DNA from: Alkalispirillum mobile
GTDB lineage: Bacteria > Pseudomonadota > Gammaproteobacteria > Nitrococcales > Halorhodospiraceae
Length of the DNA stretch: 64,000 nt
Direction of reading: 5' to 3'
Assembly (NCBI RefSeq): GCF_003664325.1
Contig: NZ_RCDA01000002.1
Coordinates: 186,001 to 250,000 of the forward strand
This document shows, one piece after another, positions 9,992 to 27,344 of the stretch. The notes below the pieces were generated by a model that worked only from the letters and a program-made list of their open reading frames with translations, ran no database searches and had not been told where the DNA came from. Numbering within the stretch: the stretch's first letter is position 1; each line of letters opens with the position of its first letter. The position numbers and the translations under genes were made by a program.

Positions 9992-11170
9992 ATGGCCCAG
10001 GACATACTCAGCCAGGACGAAATCGATGCGCTGCTCCACGGCGTGGATGATGGCGCCGTCGATACGGAGGACGATGCCGACCCTGGCGAGTTGCGTTCGT
10101 ACAACTTCACCGCCGAGGAGCGGATCGTGCGTGGGCGGATGCCCACGCTGGAGATGATCAACGAGCGCTTCGCCCGGCTGTTCCGCATCGGCCTGTTCAA
10201 CATGCTGCGCCGCACGCCGGAGGTTTCGGTGGTGGGCGTGGAGATGATGAAGTTCGGCGAGTACGTCCACACCCTGTTCGTGCCCACCAGCCTGAACCTG
10301 ATGCGGGTCCATCCGCTGCGCGGCACGGGGCTGTTCATCATCGATCCGAAGCTGGTCTTCATCGTGGTGGACAATTTCTTTGGGGGGGATGGCCGTTTCT
10401 TCGTCAAGATCGAGGGGCGCGAGTTCACGCCCACCGAGCTGCGGGTCATCCGGATGATGATCGACCAGGCCTTCGAGAACCTGGAGGAGGCCTGGAACCC
10501 GGTGATGAATGCCGAGTTCGAGTACATGCACTCCGAGGTGAACCCGCAGTTCGCCAACATCGTCAGCCCCAGCGAAGTGGTGGTGGTCAGCAAATTCCAC
10601 GTCGAGCTGGACGGCGGTGGCGGGGATATCCACGTCACGTTGCCCTACACCATGATCGAGCCGATCCGCGAGCTGCTCGACGCCGGGGTGCAGTCGGACC
10701 GCAACGAGGTGGATGAGCGCTGGACGCGCTCGCTGCGCGAAGAGATGAAATTCGCCGAGGTGGGGCTCTCCAGCCTGCTCACCGAGGTGGACGTGAGCCT
10801 GCGCGATGTCCTGAACATGAAGGCCGGTGACATCATTCCGCTGGAGCTCCCCGAGCGGGTCACGTTGTACGCCGAGGACATGCCGGTCTTCCGAGGCCGG
10901 TACGGGGTGCGCAACGGTAACGCCGCGATCAAGATTACCGAGCGCGTCGAGCCCCGTGGTGATCAGGATGCCATGCCCTGGCTAGAGGAAGAGGACAAGG
11001 CGGAGAGAAGCGACGAGAAGGCGCCAGCCGGCGGGGCGCAGACGGACGAGAAAACCAAGCCGGAGCGGGATGACTACTCGGAGTCCAGGCGCGCCGGCGA
11101 GAGCGGGACGGCGCGGCGTCGGACGGACAGGAAGACGCGAAGCCGTAAGAAGGGCGGTGAACAGCCATGA
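9992..11170 (+). CDS. fliM: Flagellar motor switch protein FliM with a long charged tail
   Basis: FliM is the middle layer of the C-ring and the main docking site for CheY-P. The N-terminal docking peptide LSQDEIDALL is at residues 6-15, followed by the CheC-like middle domain and a SpoA domain ending near 320. The protein has 392 residues against about 330 in E. coli: the last 60 or so are a Glu/Lys/Arg-rich, probably disordered tail with no homology I recognise. The stop overlaps the fliN start by four bases. Base composition of the tail matches the rest, so I see no sign of a recent frameshift. Confidence 0.95.
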   Translation: MAQDILSQDEIDALLHGVDDGAVDTEDDADPGELRSYNFTAEERIVRGRMPTLEMINERFARLFRIGLFNMLRRTPEVSVVGVEMMKFGEYVHTLFVPTSLNLMRVHPLRGTGLFIIDPKLVFIVVDNFFGGDGRFFVKIEGREFTPTELRVIRMMIDQAFENLEEAWNPVMNAEFEYMHSEVNPQFANIVSPSEVVVVSKFHVELDGGGGDIHVTLPYTMIEPIRELLDAGVQSDRNEVDERWTRSLREEMKFAEVGLSSLLTEVDVSLRDVLNMKAGDIIPLELPERVTLYAEDMPVFRGRYGVRNGNAAIKITERVEPRGDQDAMPWLEEEDKAERSDEKAPAGGAQTDEKTKPERDDYSESRRAGESGTARRRTDRKTRSRKKGGEQP

Positions 11171-20849: not shown

Positions 20850-21245
20850 ATGAACAAGAACATGAAGATCCTCATCGTGGATGATTTCTCCACGATGAGA
20901 CGCATCATCAAGAACCTGCTGCGGGATCTGGGTTTCAACAACACCGTCGAGGCCGACGACGGCAAGACGGCCCTGCCTATCCTCAAGCGCGGCGGCATCG
21001 ACTTCCTGGTCACCGACTGGAACATGCCGGGCATGACCGGGCTGGAATTGCTCAAGGAAGTGCGAGCCGATCCCGATCTCAAGGACCTGCCGGTGCTCAT
21101 GGTCACCGCCGAGGCCAAACGTGATCAGATCGTGGCCGCCGCCCAGGCCGGCGTGAACGGATACATCGTCAAGCCGTTCACCGCCGTCACGCTCAAGGAG
21201 AAGATCGAGAAGATCTTCGAGCGGATCGACGCCGAGGGGGCGTGA
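20850..21245 (+). CDS. cheY: Chemotaxis response regulator CheY
   Basis: The 131-residue single receiver domain has the acidic pair D11-D12 (ILIVDD), phosphoacceptor D56 (LVTDWNMPG), the switch threonine in MVTAEA and the lysine in YIVKPF. Phosphorylated by CheA, it binds the FliM N-terminus and FliN to reverse the motor. The start ATG follows a GGGGGA stretch. cheZ begins four bases after its stop. Confidence 0.97.
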
Positions 21246-21249
21246 ACGC

Positions 21250-22041
21250 ATGAGCGCAGAATCCATGAGCGATGGCCAGGCCAATCACCCGCAGGAGGAT
21301 AGCCTGGCGCGTTACCGCGAGGCGGCGGAACGCCTGATGCAGGCGGTTGACCGGGGGGACCAGGGCGAGGCCGACGCGGTGGTGGACGAGCTGACCCACC
21401 TGCGCGAGACCGAGCTCTTCCAGCAGCTGGGCCAGTTGACCCGCGACCTGCACGAGGCGATCAAGTCCTTCAAGCTGGACACGCGGCTGTCAGACATCGC
21501 CGCCACCGAGATCCCCGACGCCCGGGAGCGCCTGAACTACGTCATCACCATGACCGAGCAGGCGGCCCACCGCACCCTGGGCATCATCGAAGAGTCCATG
21601 CCGCTCACCGACGAGCTCCGCGACCAGTCCGCGGAGCTGGCCGAGCGCTGGCGCGCCTTCCGTCGCCGGGAGCTCTCCGCCGAAGAGTTCCGCGAACTCT
21701 CGCGGGACATCGACGGCTTCCTGGGGCGCGCCCGGCTGTCCGCGTCCGATCTGCACAATAAGCTCTCCGAGGCCCTGATGGCCCAGGACTACCAGGACAT
21801 CACCGGGCAGGTCATCCGTCGGGTGATCGGGCTGGTCGAGGAGGTCGAGGAGAACCTGGTGCAGATGGTGGCCCTGTCCGGCAAGGCCCGGGGTGAAGAA
21901 TCCCGGAAAACGGCCGATAAGGGCAAAGAGAACAAGGAAACCGATATGCGGGGCGAAGGGCCACAAATGCCCAGCAAGGGTGAGGATGTGGTCAAGGGCC
22001 AGGACGACGTGGACGATCTGCTGTCCAGCCTGGGCTTCTGA
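21250..22041 (+). CDS. cheZ: CheY-P phosphatase CheZ
   Basis: The 263-residue helical protein has the catalytic block QDYQDITGQ at about 179-187 and the C-terminal CheY-binding peptide DDLLSSLGF at the very end, joined by a charged linker (about 215-245). It dephosphorylates CheY-P. A second ATG at codon 6 could also be used. Confidence 0.96.
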   Translation: MSAESMSDGQANHPQEDSLARYREAAERLMQAVDRGDQGEADAVVDELTHLRETELFQQLGQLTRDLHEAIKSFKLDTRLSDIAATEIPDARERLNYVITMTEQAAHRTLGIIEESMPLTDELRDQSAELAERWRAFRRRELSAEEFRELSRDIDGFLGRARLSASDLHNKLSEALMAQDYQDITGQVIRRVIGLVEEVEENLVQMVALSGKARGEESRKTADKGKENKETDMRGEGPQMPSKGEDVVKGQDDVDDLLSSLGF

Positions 22042-22103: not shown

Positions 22104-24344
22104 ATGGGGATCGACATCGAAGACGACATCGTTCAGGACTTTCTGGTGGAGTCCCGGGAAATCCTGGAGAACCTCGGCGAGCAGTTGGTGGACCTGGAGC
22201 AGAGTCCCGACGACCGCGATCTGCTCAACGCCGTCTTCCGCGGTTTCCACACCATCAAGGGCGGTGCGGGCTTCCTGAGCCTGGACCCGTTGGTGGAGGT
22301 CTGTCACCGCACCGAGGACGTCTTCAATCTGCTGCGCAATGGCGATCGCACCGTCACCCCGGAGTTGATGGACACGGTGCTGCAGGCGCTTGACGTGGTG
22401 GTCAACCAGTTCAACAGCATCGAGAACGGCGAGGACCCCGAGCCCGCCGACCCGGCACTGCTGCGCGACCTGGAGGCCCTGAACATCACCGACGAGCAAC
22501 GGCTGGCCGGGGAGGGCGCTCCGCAGGGCGACACGGCCGCCGCCGACCCGCCGGTACAAGGGAAGAGGCAGGCCGAGGGTGCCCCTGGTCAGGGGGAAGA
22601 GGGCGACATCAGCGACCAGGAATTCGAGCAGTTGCTCGACGCCCTGGAGGACGAGCAATCCGCGCCCGCTGCAGATCCCGCCGGTACCGACCAGGGCGCC
22701 AGCAGCAGCGACGAGATCACCGACGACGAATTCGAAGCCCTGCTGGACGAGCTGCACGGCAAGGGCAAGCACGCCGGCGTGCCCGAAAAGGAGCCGGCTT
22801 CCGCCTCCACCGGCGACCAGGGTGGGACCCAGGCTGCCCCGGATCAGCCTCAGGGCAACGGCGACGAGGAGATATCCGAGGACGAGTTCGAGGCCCTGCT
22901 AGACGACCTGCACGGCAAGGGCGGCGCCCCCGGGAAGGGAGCGGCGGACGACAAGGCGGACCGCGGTTCTGCATCGGCCTCCGAGGCCCCGCCTGCCGCC
23001 CCCCGGGAGCCGACGCCCAAGGCCCGGGCGGAGCAACCCGCGCAGCCCGCCAAGCCGGCCGCGGGTGGCGGTTCCGGTGGCCAGAAAGGGGGCGGTGGTA
23101 CGGGGGGGCAGTCCTCGGGCGGTGGGGGTGCCGGCAAGGCACCCGCACCCAAACCGGAAGCCACCGTGCGCGTGGATACCGCCAAGCTGGACGACATCAT
23201 GAACCTGGTCGGGGAGCTGGTCCTGGTCCGGAATCGGCTGGCCACGTTGCGCGGCGTGCTGGGCGATGAGCGCATGGGGCAGGCGGTCTCAGACCTGGAA
23301 CTGGTTACCTCCGACTTGCAGACCGCGGTCATGAAGACCCGGATGCAGCCGATCAAGAAGGTCTTCGGGCGCTTCCCCCGCCTGATCCGTGATCTCGCGC
23401 GGAACATGGACAAGGACATCAAGCTGGAGACCCGCGGCGAGGACACCGACCTGGACAAGAACATGGTCGAGGCCCTGGCCGATCCCATGGTCCACCTGGT
23501 GCGCAACGCCGTGGACCACGGCATCGAACCCCCGGACGAGCGTGAGGCAGCGGGCAAGCCCCGCGCCGGCACAGTCCTGCTGGCCGCCGAACAGGAGGGG
23601 GATCACATCCTGCTCACCATCGCCGACGACGGCCGGGGTATGGATGCCGAGAAGCTGCGTAACATCGCGGTGGAAAAGGGCGTGATGGACCGAGAGTCCG
23701 CCAACCGGCTGGACGAGAAAGAGTGCTACAACCTGATCTTCGCCGCTGGCTTCTCCACCAAGGAGGAGATCTCCGACGTCTCTGGGCGCGGGGTGGGCAT
23801 GGACGTGGTCAAGAACAGCATCTCGCGTCTGAACGGCACGGTGGATATCGACTCCGAGATGGGTGTCGGCACCACCATGAAGGTTCAGCTGCCGCTGACG
23901 CTCGCCATCCTGCCCACGCTGATGGTCAAGGTCGGGGGGCGCAAGTTCGCCTTGCCCATGTCCGTGGTCCGCGAGATCTTCGAGCTCAACCACAAGCGGA
24001 CGAACGTGGTGAACGGGCGGCTGGTGGTCATGGTGCGCAACAAGGCCATGCCGCTGTTCTTCCTCGAGCGCTGGCTGCAGCAGATGGGCGAGGGTACCGT
24101 GCGGAGCATGCACGAGGCCGGCAGCGACGACGAGCGCCAGGTGGTGACCGTGATCCTCGGCAACCAGGCCGTGGGCTTCGTGGTGGACGAGGTCATCGGG
24201 CTCGAGGAGGTGGTCATCAAACCCCTGGGTGCCATGCTCCAGGGGCTGCCCGGCCTGGCCGGGTCCACCATCACCGGCGACGGCAAGATCGCCCTCATCG
24301 TCGACATCCCCAGTCTGGTCAAGGCTTACGGTACCCGGCTCTGA
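22104..24344 (+). CDS. cheA: Chemotaxis histidine kinase CheA with three FliM-like linker motifs
   Basis: The 746-residue protein has the HPt domain with phosphorylated H49 (FRGFHTIKGGAGF), a low-complexity linker (about 115-355), the dimerisation domain from ELVLVRNRL (371), the ATPase with HLVRNAVDHGIE and GRGVGMDVV, and a C-terminal CheW-like domain. It passes phosphate to CheY and CheB. No globular P2 domain is visible. Instead the linker carries three related acidic peptides: ISDQEFEQLL (169-178), ITDDEFEALL (205-214) and ISEDEFEALL (257-266). All resemble the CheY-binding peptide of FliM (LSQDEIDALL). Confidence 0.96.
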   Translation: MGIDIEDDIVQDFLVESREILENLGEQLVDLEQSPDDRDLLNAVFRGFHTIKGGAGFLSLDPLVEVCHRTEDVFNLLRNGDRTVTPELMDTVLQALDVVVNQFNSIENGEDPEPADPALLRDLEALNITDEQRLAGEGAPQGDTAAADPPVQGKRQAEGAPGQGEEGDISDQEFEQLLDALEDEQSAPAADPAGTDQGASSSDEITDDEFEALLDELHGKGKHAGVPEKEPASASTGDQGGTQAAPDQPQGNGDEEISEDEFEALLDDLHGKGGAPGKGAADDKADRGSASASEAPPAAPREPTPKARAEQPAQPAKPAAGGGSGGQKGGGGTGGQSSGGGGAGKAPAPKPEATVRVDTAKLDDIMNLVGELVLVRNRLATLRGVLGDERMGQAVSDLELVTSDLQTAVMKTRMQPIKKVFGRFPRLIRDLARNMDKDIKLETRGEDTDLDKNMVEALADPMVHLVRNAVDHGIEPPDEREAAGKPRAGTVLLAAEQEGDHILLTIADDGRGMDAEKLRNIAVEKGVMDRESANRLDEKECYNLIFAAGFSTKEEISDVSGRGVGMDVVKNSISRLNGTVDIDSEMGVGTTMKVQLPLTLAILPTLMVKVGGRKFALPMSVVREIFELNHKRTNVVNGRLVVMVRNKAMPLFFLERWLQQMGEGTVRSMHEAGSDDERQVVTVILGNQAVGFVVDEVIGLEEVVIKPLGAMLQGLPGLAGSTITGDGKIALIVDIPSLVKAYGTRL
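22605..22922 (+). repeat. Three diverged copies of an acidic LL motif inside cheA
   Basis: Copies lie at 22605-22646, 22713-22766 and 22869-22922. The last two also share ELHGKG or DLHGKG after the motif. The copies are similar at protein level but well diverged at DNA level, so they are old and kept by selection rather than recent slippage. Confidence 0.75.
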
Positions 24345-25720: not shown

Positions 25721-26518
25721 ATGAGGATCTGGACAGTCGCCAATCAAAAAGGCGGGGTCGGCAAGACCACCACCGCAGTCAGTTTGGGCGGCCTGCTTGC
25801 GCTCAAGCGCCGCCGTTGCGTGCTGGTGGATCTGGATCCTCACGGCTCGCTCACCGCCTACTTCGGCTACGACCCGGAGACCGTGCAGCCCAGCATTTAC
25901 GATCTGTTCGACACACCGGGCAAGGCCCCGCCGGCGCGGGAGCTGTTGCACGACACCGGCGTGGAGGGCCTGAAGCTGATTCCCGCCTCCACGGCACTGG
26001 CGACCCTGGACCGTCAGCTGGGCAGCCGGCAGGGTATGGGGCTCGTGGTTCAGCGGGGTCTGGCGACGCTGGAGGATGACTTCGAGTTCGCCTTCCTGGA
26101 CTGCGCGCCGATGCTGGGGGTGCTCATGGTCAACGCCCTGGCGGCCTGCGGCCACCTGCTGATACCGGTGCAGACCGAGTTTCTGGCACTGAAAGGCCTG
26201 GAGCGGATGATCCGGACCCTGGACATGGTGCAGCGTTCGCGCAGTCGGCCGTTACCCTACACCATCGTACCCACGCTCTATGACCGGCGTACCCGCGCCT
26301 CGGTGGAGTCGCTCAAGGAGATCCGCCGCGTCTACGGTGATAAGGCCTGGGAGGGCGCGATCCCGGTGGATACCCAGTTCCGCGATGCCAGCCGCGCGGG
26401 CCGGCCGCTGACGGTGATGCAGCCCTGGGCCCGCGGCAGTATTGCTTATCGCAAACTGCTGGACACTTTGGATACCGATGGGGCGGACGATGACCGGCCG
26501 GAGGTGCAGCATGGCTGA
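25721..26518 (+). CDS. ParA-family ATPase, ParC-like positioning factor for chemoreceptor arrays
   Basis: The 265-residue ATPase has the deviant Walker A QKGGVGKTTTAVS near residue 9, LVDLDPHGSLT, and LDCAPMLGVL. Its place between cheB and a CheW-domain gene matches the ParC/ParP pair of vibrios and the equivalent ParA homologue in the pseudomonad chemotaxis cluster. There it recruits the chemotaxis array to the cell pole. It is not a plasmid or chromosome partition gene, since no parB or parS is near. I leave the symbol empty to avoid confusion with topoisomerase parC at 3181. Confidence 0.88.
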   Translation: MRIWTVANQKGGVGKTTTAVSLGGLLALKRRRCVLVDLDPHGSLTAYFGYDPETVQPSIYDLFDTPGKAPPARELLHDTGVEGLKLIPASTALATLDRQLGSRQGMGLVVQRGLATLEDDFEFAFLDCAPMLGVLMVNALAACGHLLIPVQTEFLALKGLERMIRTLDMVQRSRSRPLPYTIVPTLYDRRTRASVESLKEIRRVYGDKAWEGAIPVDTQFRDASRAGRPLTVMQPWARGSIAYRKLLDTLDTDGADDDRPEVQHG

Positions 26519-27344
26519 CCGGCGGAACGGAGAGGACCCGGCGCTGGTGCGCCAGGACCAGGCCCTCAGCAGCTACCTGGAGGACCTGCTCTCGGCTATC
26601 CCGGAGGGCGACGAAGAGGCGTCCGGGCGGGAAGAAGCCCCGGAGCCGGAGCCCGCCCCGCACCCACCCCGACCGGTGTTGGATACCCCGGCCCGGCCGG
26701 TGACGCACCTGCCCACCGTGGCACCGCCGGAGCCCGCAGAGCCGGCGGTGAAGCCAGCCCCGGCGGAAGCCCCGCCCGCGGAGACGCCCGAGGAGCCCCC
26801 GCCAGCGGAGGTCCCTGCCGTTGATACGCCATCGGTCGCGGCCCGGCGGGCGCCGGCGCCAGAGCCAGAACCCGAAGGGCCTCATGACCCGATCCCGGAA
26901 TGGGCCCGCCCCGATTTCCAGGCGCTCATTTTCTATGTGGGCGGGCTGCGGCTGGCTGTCCCCCTGGTCAAGCTGAACAGTGTGGTGCCGTATCCGCGGA
27001 AGGTTGCCCCAACGCCCGGCAAGCCGGACTGGTTCCGCGGCCTGTTCCATTACCGGGGGCGCAACGTGAAGGTGGTGGACACGGCTACCCTGGTGCTGGA
27101 CCGGCACCGCAACCGGCTGTCCGACGAAGACCTGTCGCCCCGGAAGCTGCTGGTGGTAGGTGACAGCGAGTGGGCGTTGGCCTGCCGGGATGTGGGCGAG
27201 GTGATGCGGTTGAAACCGGACCAGGTGCAATGGCGCACCAGTCGCGGCCAACGCCGGTGGTTGGCCGGCACGGTGCGCGAGCACCTCTGCGCGCTGATGG
27301 ACACCGACGCCTTCGCGGAATTGCTGGAGGAACACCGGACTTGA
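26511..27344 (+). CDS. parP: ParP-like CheW-domain protein linking CheA to the ParC-like ATPase
   Basis: The 277-residue protein has a short helical N-terminus, a long Pro/Glu/Ala-rich segment (about 35-130) and a C-terminal CheW-like domain (from about 140: LIFYVGGLRLAVPLVKLNSVV). In vibrios ParP binds ParC through its N-terminus and CheA through its C-terminus. The ATG at 26511 overlaps the preceding gene by eight bases and follows GGAGG. The upstream in-frame start at 26442 would lie deep inside the ATPase gene, so I rejected it. Confidence 0.8.
   Translation: MADRRNGEDPALVRQDQALSSYLEDLLSAIPEGDEEASGREEAPEPEPAPHPPRPVLDTPARPVTHLPTVAPPEPAEPAVKPAPAEAPPAETPEEPPPAEVPAVDTPSVAARRAPAPEPEPEGPHDPIPEWARPDFQALIFYVGGLRLAVPLVKLNSVVPYPRKVAPTPGKPDWFRGLFHYRGRNVKVVDTATLVLDRHRNRLSDEDLSPRKLLVVGDSEWALACRDVGEVMRLKPDQVQWRTSRGQRRWLAGTVREHLCALMDTDAFAELLEEHRT

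Follow-up and report, generated by a model that had tools for sequence, protein, structure and literature searches.

How might a CheA kinase without a P2 domain hold CheY? This question is raised by a 64,000-nucleotide stretch of Alkalispirillum mobile (contig NZ_RCDA01000002.1, positions 186,001 to 250,000; hereafter the window), a flagellar and chemotaxis gene cluster in which the linker of CheA carries three short peptides that resemble the N-terminus of FliM. A first-pass annotation, made from the DNA letters, proposed that these peptides replace P2. The observation in the window CheA is real and is far from local. We consider it probable that repeated short CheY-docking motifs stand in for P2 in this class of CheA, which we take to be the F6-type class of gammaproteobacterial polar flagella. 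This reading rests on the conservation of the motif, the absence of a detectable P2, the predicted helices, the likeness to CheY ligands and the occurrence of the motif without ParC and without CheZ; from these we infer CheY binding, an effect on phosphotransfer and competition with the motor.

The CheA linker and its repeated motif

The gene, its linker and the motif copies lie in the window as follows.

22104..24344, + strand: cheA, flagellar chemotaxis kinase of 746 residues (open reading frame and Pfam); Pfam domains Hpt 8-99, H-kinase_dim 353-412, HATPase_c 461-599, CheW 606-740
22434..23150, + strand: linker from Hpt to the dimerisation domain, residues ~111-349, mostly low-confidence or disordered in prediction, without P2
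22608..22637, + strand: motif copy 1, ISDQEFEQLL, residues 169-178, without LHG tail
22716..22760, + strand: motif copy 2, ITDDEFEALLDELHG, residues 205-219 (core ITDDEFEALL, residues 205-214, 22716-22745)
22872..22916, + strand: motif copy 3, ISEDEFEALLDDLHG, residues 257-271 (core ISEDEFEALL, residues 257-266, 22872-22901)

The three CheA peptides, and LSQDEIDALL of FliM, are present in the window's open reading frames (ORFs) exactly as first annotated. The CheA copies share the pattern I-[ST]-[DE]-[DQ]-E-F-E-x-L-L-D and are akin to the FliM N-terminus and the CheZ C-terminus. When all six frames of the window were searched with the strict pattern, only the FliM site and the three CheA sites matched, and a back-translated DNA pattern of the CheA form matched the three CheA sites only (expected 0.00 from 100 shuffles). 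For each pair of window copies, 3-5 of the 9-12 shared residues are encoded by different codons. Thus, the three copies are old and kept, and a recent DNA duplication as their source was ruled out.

A CheA search over 185 genomes of the window's class gave matches in 143. From the search listing 100 regions were taken, plus two from the window's own genome, and two sets were compared. The first holds 64 full-length orthologs, among them the window CheA, against which all score >470 bits; they are the top of the score list and no random sample. The second holds 33 lower-scoring CheAs. Five fragments whose ORF lacks Hpt (L045, L046, L053, L066, L088) and a 2061-residue Chp-like CheA (L006) were left out before these counts; fragment L053 carries one motif copy. 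The comparison of linkers across gammaproteobacterial CheAs, proposed as a check in the first-pass annotation, bore the motif out: it was found in 63 of the 64 orthologs and, by the strict pattern, in none of the 33 lower-scoring CheAs. The orthologs hold 154 copies, and each motif-bearing protein has one to six of them; in 300 composition-preserving shuffles of their linkers the mean was 0.02 and the maximum 1. All 154 copies lie within the linker, and the pattern is absent elsewhere in these 64 proteins. The sole ortholog without the strict motif (L072) has two degenerate copies, and a looser pattern found one copy in one of the 33 (L106), in which no P2 was detected. The core domains (Hpt, H-kinase_dim, HATPase_c, CheW) were matched in 64/64 orthologs at E<=0.1, and CheW in 63/64 at E<=0.01.

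In a set of 80 named loci, which partly overlaps the 64 orthologs (L048/L163, apparently L063/L158), the motif was found in 43 of the 45 CheAs scoring >500 bits; the two exceptions are a Nitrospiria CheA and a fragment that has no linker. The carriers include Pseudomonas, Stutzerimonas, Vibrio, Photobacterium, Shewanella, Alteromonas, Moritella, Marinobacter, Dyella and Stenotrophomonas. Among the 35 lower-scoring named CheAs, only that of Acidithiobacillus (L175) has the motif. The CheA of P. aeruginosa carries four copies, at residues 165, 199, 245 and 300, and no P2 in Pfam; no copy was found in E. coli CheA.

The commonest residues over 265 CheA copies read D-E-I-T-D-D-E-F-E-A-L-L-D-Q-L-H-G-K-G. 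The pattern that collected them allowed F, I, L, V or M at the F, L, I, V or M at the second L, any residue at the next D, and D or E before the F; we found F in 265/265, the second L in 262/265, the next D in 258/265 and E before F in 262/265. The LHG tail is missing in some copies, for example window copy 1.

Several loci of the survey are unusual in themselves. The 1068-residue CheA of L037 (3851-7054, - strand) has six strict copies, and its linker contains a long tract of Ala-Pro-Lys repeats. In L045, L066 and L088, CheA is split into two ORFs, an N-terminal piece with the motifs and a C-terminal kinase core, by a frameshift or an assembly error. A contig labelled as a Klebsiella pneumoniae metagenome-assembled genome (L161) bears an F6-type CheA and is probably mis-binned. 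An 847-kb record labelled as a P. aeruginosa 'plasmid' (L216) contains flhA-flhF-fleN-fliA-cheYZAB; it reflects either a large insertion of chromosomal DNA or a problem of assembly.

P2, predicted helices and the CheA tree

The P2 domain (Pfam P2 and CheY-binding, PF09078) has the same position in CheA and the same proposed job as the motif linker, but it is a folded beta-alpha domain. The first-pass annotation saw no recognisable P2 in the linker, and none was detected by Pfam, by a P2 hidden Markov model (HMM) or by AlphaFold. Pfam gave nothing above cut-off, P2 and CheY-binding included, between Hpt and H-kinase_dim of the window CheA, and P2/CheY-binding matched 0 of the 64 orthologs at E<=0.01 (all 12 families at that cut-off). 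These Pfam models matched only one of the 33 lower-scoring CheAs as well, which is in line with a passage of PMC10782961 that calls Pfam P2 models weak. The P2 HMM was built from 28 paralogs, with L075, L105, L106, L108 and L134 removed from training; it recovered 28/28 in leave-one-out runs and 0/64 orthologs (best E 0.41).

AlphaFold2, run on residues 1-357 of the window CheA with 61 sequences (L037, L048 and L103 were additionally left out of this alignment), predicted a confident P1, two short helices beside Hpt (117-125 and 130-137) and a low-confidence linker with no strands. Beyond the Hpt flank, the only linker helices are 171-185, 207-218 and 259-269, which are the three motifs; their mean pLDDT (predicted local distance difference test) over ten residues is 89, 78 and 83. 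L005, the second CheA encoded in the window's genome, has no motif and was predicted to contain a beta-alpha domain at residues 158-243 with pLDDT ~94. A P2 hidden from Pfam was rejected, in the window by structure prediction and in the orthologs by Pfam and the P2 HMM. Across the 61 aligned N-terminal halves, F262 and L266 of the motif never vary, a property otherwise confined to P1 residues and R356; most linker positions have no majority residue.

The motif helices are also touched by weak Pfam matches. SHOCT-model matches occurred in 53/64 orthologs at E<=0.1 and in 36/64 at E<=0.01, and one reached E 3e-09. In the window CheA, SHOCT, GemA and MCM_C matches are below cut-off and located on the motif helices, and where listed they are also below cut-off in four further proteins examined. 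We take them as a likeness of short acidic helices.

A tree of 102 of 181 CheA cores was made with a quick Shimodaira-Hasegawa-like approximate likelihood ratio test (SH-aLRT). All 42 motif rows group with betaproteobacterial CheAs (SH-aLRT 95), and all 16 P2 rows lie on the other side. On the motif side, the gammaproteobacterial rows that lack the motif consist of L072 and fragments. Because the tree has this single deep split, the swap between P2 and motif is old and happened few times, and independent swaps are not supported. What carries the case is that the motif is conserved within a disordered linker; it does not depend on the swap having recurred.

Likeness to CheY ligands and the rival readings

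The likeness to CheY ligands involves three neighbouring genes.

9992-11170, + strand: FliM, confirmed by Pfam; N-terminal peptide LSQDEIDALL at 10007..10036
20850..21245, + strand: CheY, presumed ligand (ORF and Pfam)
21250-22041, + strand: CheZ; C-terminal peptide QDDVDDLLSSLGF at 22000..22038

FliM and CheZ use the alpha4-beta5-alpha5 face of CheY, and the C-terminus of CheZ is a ligand of active CheY. In the window, FliM begins with MAQDILSQDEIDALL and CheZ ends with GQDDVDDLLSSLGF. The window CheY is identical to E. coli CheY at 82/128 residues and at 31/42 across E. coli residues 84-125, the aligned alpha4-beta5-alpha5 side; 11 of 13 FliM-contact residues of E. coli CheY are identical and two are changed conservatively. 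The FliM peptide, which also occurs in FliY, has the S/T-x-[DE]-E-hydrophobic-[DE]-x-L-L core, the short helix and the flexible tether of the CheA motif, and its complex with CheY is 1f4v (cited in PMC7355467). In contrast, the CheA motif lies in a kinase, occurs in 1-6 copies, and has a central F, a D after LL and often an LHG-x-G tail. The C-terminal helix of CheZ (Q-D-[DE]-V-D-D-L-L-x-x-L) shares the acidic core, the LL and the L at +3, but it is a single C-terminal copy with V in place of F. Thus the FliM mimicry proposed by the first-pass annotation holds for the sequence core, whereas the CheA form is not identical to FliM, in which the central residue is I in 43 and V in 5 of 48 sequences (any residue allowed).

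A profile of 48 FliM N-termini (17 distinct) was scanned over 2,900 ORFs. FliM ranked first, followed mostly by CheZ C-termini; CheA came lower, among, for example, FlhA-length ORFs. At a score >=14 there were 48 FliM, 31 CheZ, 5 CheA and 7 others, and at >=11 there were 48 FliM, 48 CheZ, 23 CheA and 23 others, so that the CheZ C-terminus fits the FliM profile better than the CheA motif does. The best linker match of the profile exceeded the 99th percentile of shuffles in 52/64 orthologs, compared with 1/33 lower-scoring CheAs, and its top window fell inside the linker in 56/64 orthologs. Over 8,034 ORFs, the motif pattern gave 175 matches, of which 172 are CheA (113, including 3 fragments), FliM (51), CheZ or CheZ-like (5, one below the Pfam cut-off) and FliY/FliN-like proteins (3, with the peptide near the N-terminus). 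The three remaining are a FliR-family export protein, one that by eye starts like DnaK and one unassigned. The counts for CheA and FliM are partly by design, because the loci were chosen for CheA and the pattern was written after both had been seen; CheZ and FliY played no part in making it. Since one pattern retrieves FliM, FliY, CheZ and CheA and little else, the CheA peptides belong to the sequence class of known CheY ligands.

Two gammaproteobacterial FliN-like proteins (Pfam FliMN_C), at L052:3905-4426 (+) and L092:17134-17610 (-), have FliM-type peptides near the N-terminus, ISQDDVDSLM and NQDDIDALL, as if FliN had acquired a CheY-binding tail.

In the docking reading, a folded P2 would be replaced by one to six short amphipathic-helix motifs on a disordered tether that joins the phosphotransfer domain to the dimerisation domain. 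Every copy would fold as a helix upon the alpha4-beta5-alpha5 face of CheY, possibly also of CheB or CheV receivers, and would hold CheY close to the phosphorylated Hpt domain, raising its local concentration. Released CheY would then be contested by FliM and CheZ through the same face. Such a dock would be useful because, as given in a passage of PMC5705603, E. coli CheY binds isolated P1 at ~900 micromolar and P2 at 0.5 micromolar.

Several results weigh against docking. F replaces the I/V of FliM in all 265 CheA copies, and the FliM profile has its top window outside the linker in 8/64 orthologs. A passage of PMC7355467 gives FliM-N, the FliM N-terminal peptide, a ~20-fold higher affinity for phosphorylated CheY (CheY-P) than for CheY; therefore, a peptide at the kinase that copied FliM faithfully could retain the product, and a substrate dock should not prefer CheY-P. 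The P2 HMM covers one P2 type: it overlooks the E. coli-like P2 of L108 and matched 0/80 named loci, and because it is not universal a missing match to it is, by itself, weak evidence. The structure prediction covers one ortholog, the window CheA. Foldseek did not set the two models clearly apart: the P1-P2 entry 2lp4 came first for the L005 control (250 columns) and second for the window model (189 columns), which otherwise matched, at E<=0.001, P1 domains and a designed helical repeat. Because some CheAs show neither P2 nor motif (L075, L105 and L134 of the 33, and many of other phyla), the two are not strictly complementary. The division between them follows one deep split of the CheA tree, that is, few evolutionary events, and the betaproteobacterial sister CheAs have no motif, so that such a dock may be unnecessary. 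Finally, in vibrios a function has been published for a region between P1 and P3, namely the binding of ParP by LID. Taken together, the proposal of FliM-like peptides in place of P2 is partly supported: the missing sign of a folded P2 and the CheY-ligand sequence class speak for it, and the peptides are not FliM's own form.

The preference of FliM-N leads to a second reading, in which the motifs bind mainly CheY-P and act as a multivalent buffer or product trap at the array, with no substrate dock. The closest known sequence relatives, FliM-N with its 20-fold preference (PMC7355467) and the CheZ C-terminus, are ligands of active CheY, and up to six copies occur per CheA (L037). On the other hand, the state preference could be altered by the uniform F in place of I/V and by the LHG tail that many copies carry; the constant F may hint at a changed choice between CheY and CheY-P. 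We regard the trap as possible but doubtful, and its probability falls largely within that of docking.

The LID reading brings in two further genes of the window.

25721..26518, + strand: ParC-like ParA-family ATPase, named ParC by position and kinship, with no curated model
26442..27344, + strand: ParP-like protein, assigned by position, with a C-terminal CheW-like domain at residues 160-292 and no NCBIfam match

Passages of PMC5706961 and PMC7534058 describe LID as the CheA region between P2 and P3 that binds ParP in vibrios, and say that it occurs solely with ParC/ParP. The motif would then be LID or a part of it, binding the AIF domain of ParP and keeping arrays polar, and the likeness to FliM would be secondary. 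LID and the motif region share the linker and the CheA class, and the two probably overlap. Besides the ParC-like and ParP-like genes of the window, ParC (>=190 bits) was present in the retrieved DNA of 45/64 orthologs (several of these stretches are short), and Vibrio and Photobacterium have a family-specific tail after the last motif. By eye, this conserved tail reads like GKGPS-x-EL-x-ATKP in L138, L160 and L181 (Vibrionaceae); it is a candidate for that part of LID which binds ParP specifically. However, whereas LID is defined by ParP binding and co-occurrence with ParC/ParP, the motif is also present where ParC was not found. Seventeen genomes were searched for ParC, some of them drafts and most picked for having no ParC in view around cheA. 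In four of them (G151, G157, G165, G012) ParC lies elsewhere or at a greater distance, and the other 13 gave no match above 141 bits (193-398 for ParC beside cheA). The strict motif is present in the CheA of twelve of the 13, and the remaining one (G025, L072) has degenerate copies; judged on ParC, the motif is not confined to company with ParC/ParP. A ParP HMM, which is not ParP-specific, gave 19-33 bits or nothing near cheA of the genomes without detectable ParC, the level of CheW. Because it gave only 28-34 bits beside real ParC too (L063, L065, L073, L074, L179), it cannot separate divergent ParP from CheW. LID binding also gives no reason for the likeness to FliM, FliY and CheZ. We therefore hold LID to be an improbable account of the motif, although vibrios could use the motif region for ParP.

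Still less probable, in our view, is that CheZ or a different array protein is recruited by the motif, or that the motif is an autoregulatory helix within CheA. The weak SHOCT matches agree with such a role in showing a rather generic acidic amphipathic helix. CheZ as the partner had been named by the first-pass annotation as a finding that would refute docking, and the genomes speak against it: CheZ was undetected in 4 of 14 genomes searched (G022, G170, G101, G148), and their CheAs keep the motif. In G022 and G170, of one genus, neither ParC nor CheZ was detectable and the motif is kept. Besides CheA, moreover, the motif pattern retrieves almost exclusively CheY-ligand and switch proteins. 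Because the motif persists without detectable ParC or CheZ, CheZ is an unlikely general partner, and so is ParP as far as ParC tells.

Linkers of other lineages and the meaning of the motif

Conserved islands also occur in the linkers of other CheAs. Those of Helicobacter/Campylobacter-like CheAs contain [LM]S-x-x-EVE-x-EI-x-RL, which is partly FliM-like, in 33/33 examined (the 30 best-scoring loci plus L173, L185 and L188; L185 and L245 are one genome). The island was seen in L173, L182, L185, L188 and L230-L259, and by eye both Sulfuricurvum CheAs have two copies; it was not found in the linker of L190, a Campylobacterales metagenome-assembled genome. The FliM profile reaches significance (p<=0.05) in no more than 14 of the 33, and a second FliM mimic is for now a lead. 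Further islands were noted by eye. Betaproteobacterial CheAs (L194, L198-L200, L204, L205, L211) have short linkers with an island like PDW-x-x-LH-x-AV-[TS]-G, most with a basic GRR run ahead of the dimerisation domain. In some P2-less CheAs from other phyla (L180, L187, L210) there are GEILVxxG...-type stretches resembling MshEN-like modules. L190 and L192 (Aquificota), paired in the tree, share an island LILLPPEER....

It is tempting, though we give it less than even odds, to see short linear motifs as a general means by which P2-less CheAs hold CheY, covering the gammaproteobacterial repeats, the Helicobacter/Campylobacter-like island and the betaproteobacterial islands. The gammaproteobacterial repeats might also keep CheY-P polar beside the motor, so that kinase, phosphatase and motor would compete for one face of CheY.

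No description of FliM-like motifs in CheA was found in searches of a collection limited to CC0, CC BY and CC BY-SA papers of PubMed Central, and publication elsewhere is possible. A passage of PMC10782961 reports that over half of CheAs lack P2 and have an 'extended unstructured region' there, and calls P2 dispensable. Should the motifs dock CheY, much of the P2-less group would have a dock after all, in the form of a repeated short motif. CheA would also be read differently where P2 has been assumed: passages of PMC11978298 describe P. putida CheA with 'five domains', and passages of PMC7534058 place the LID of V. cholerae after 'P2'. Docking could account for rapid transfer and signalling in kinases without P2 in many bacteria with polar flagella, and one surface of CheY would link kinase, phosphatase and motor.

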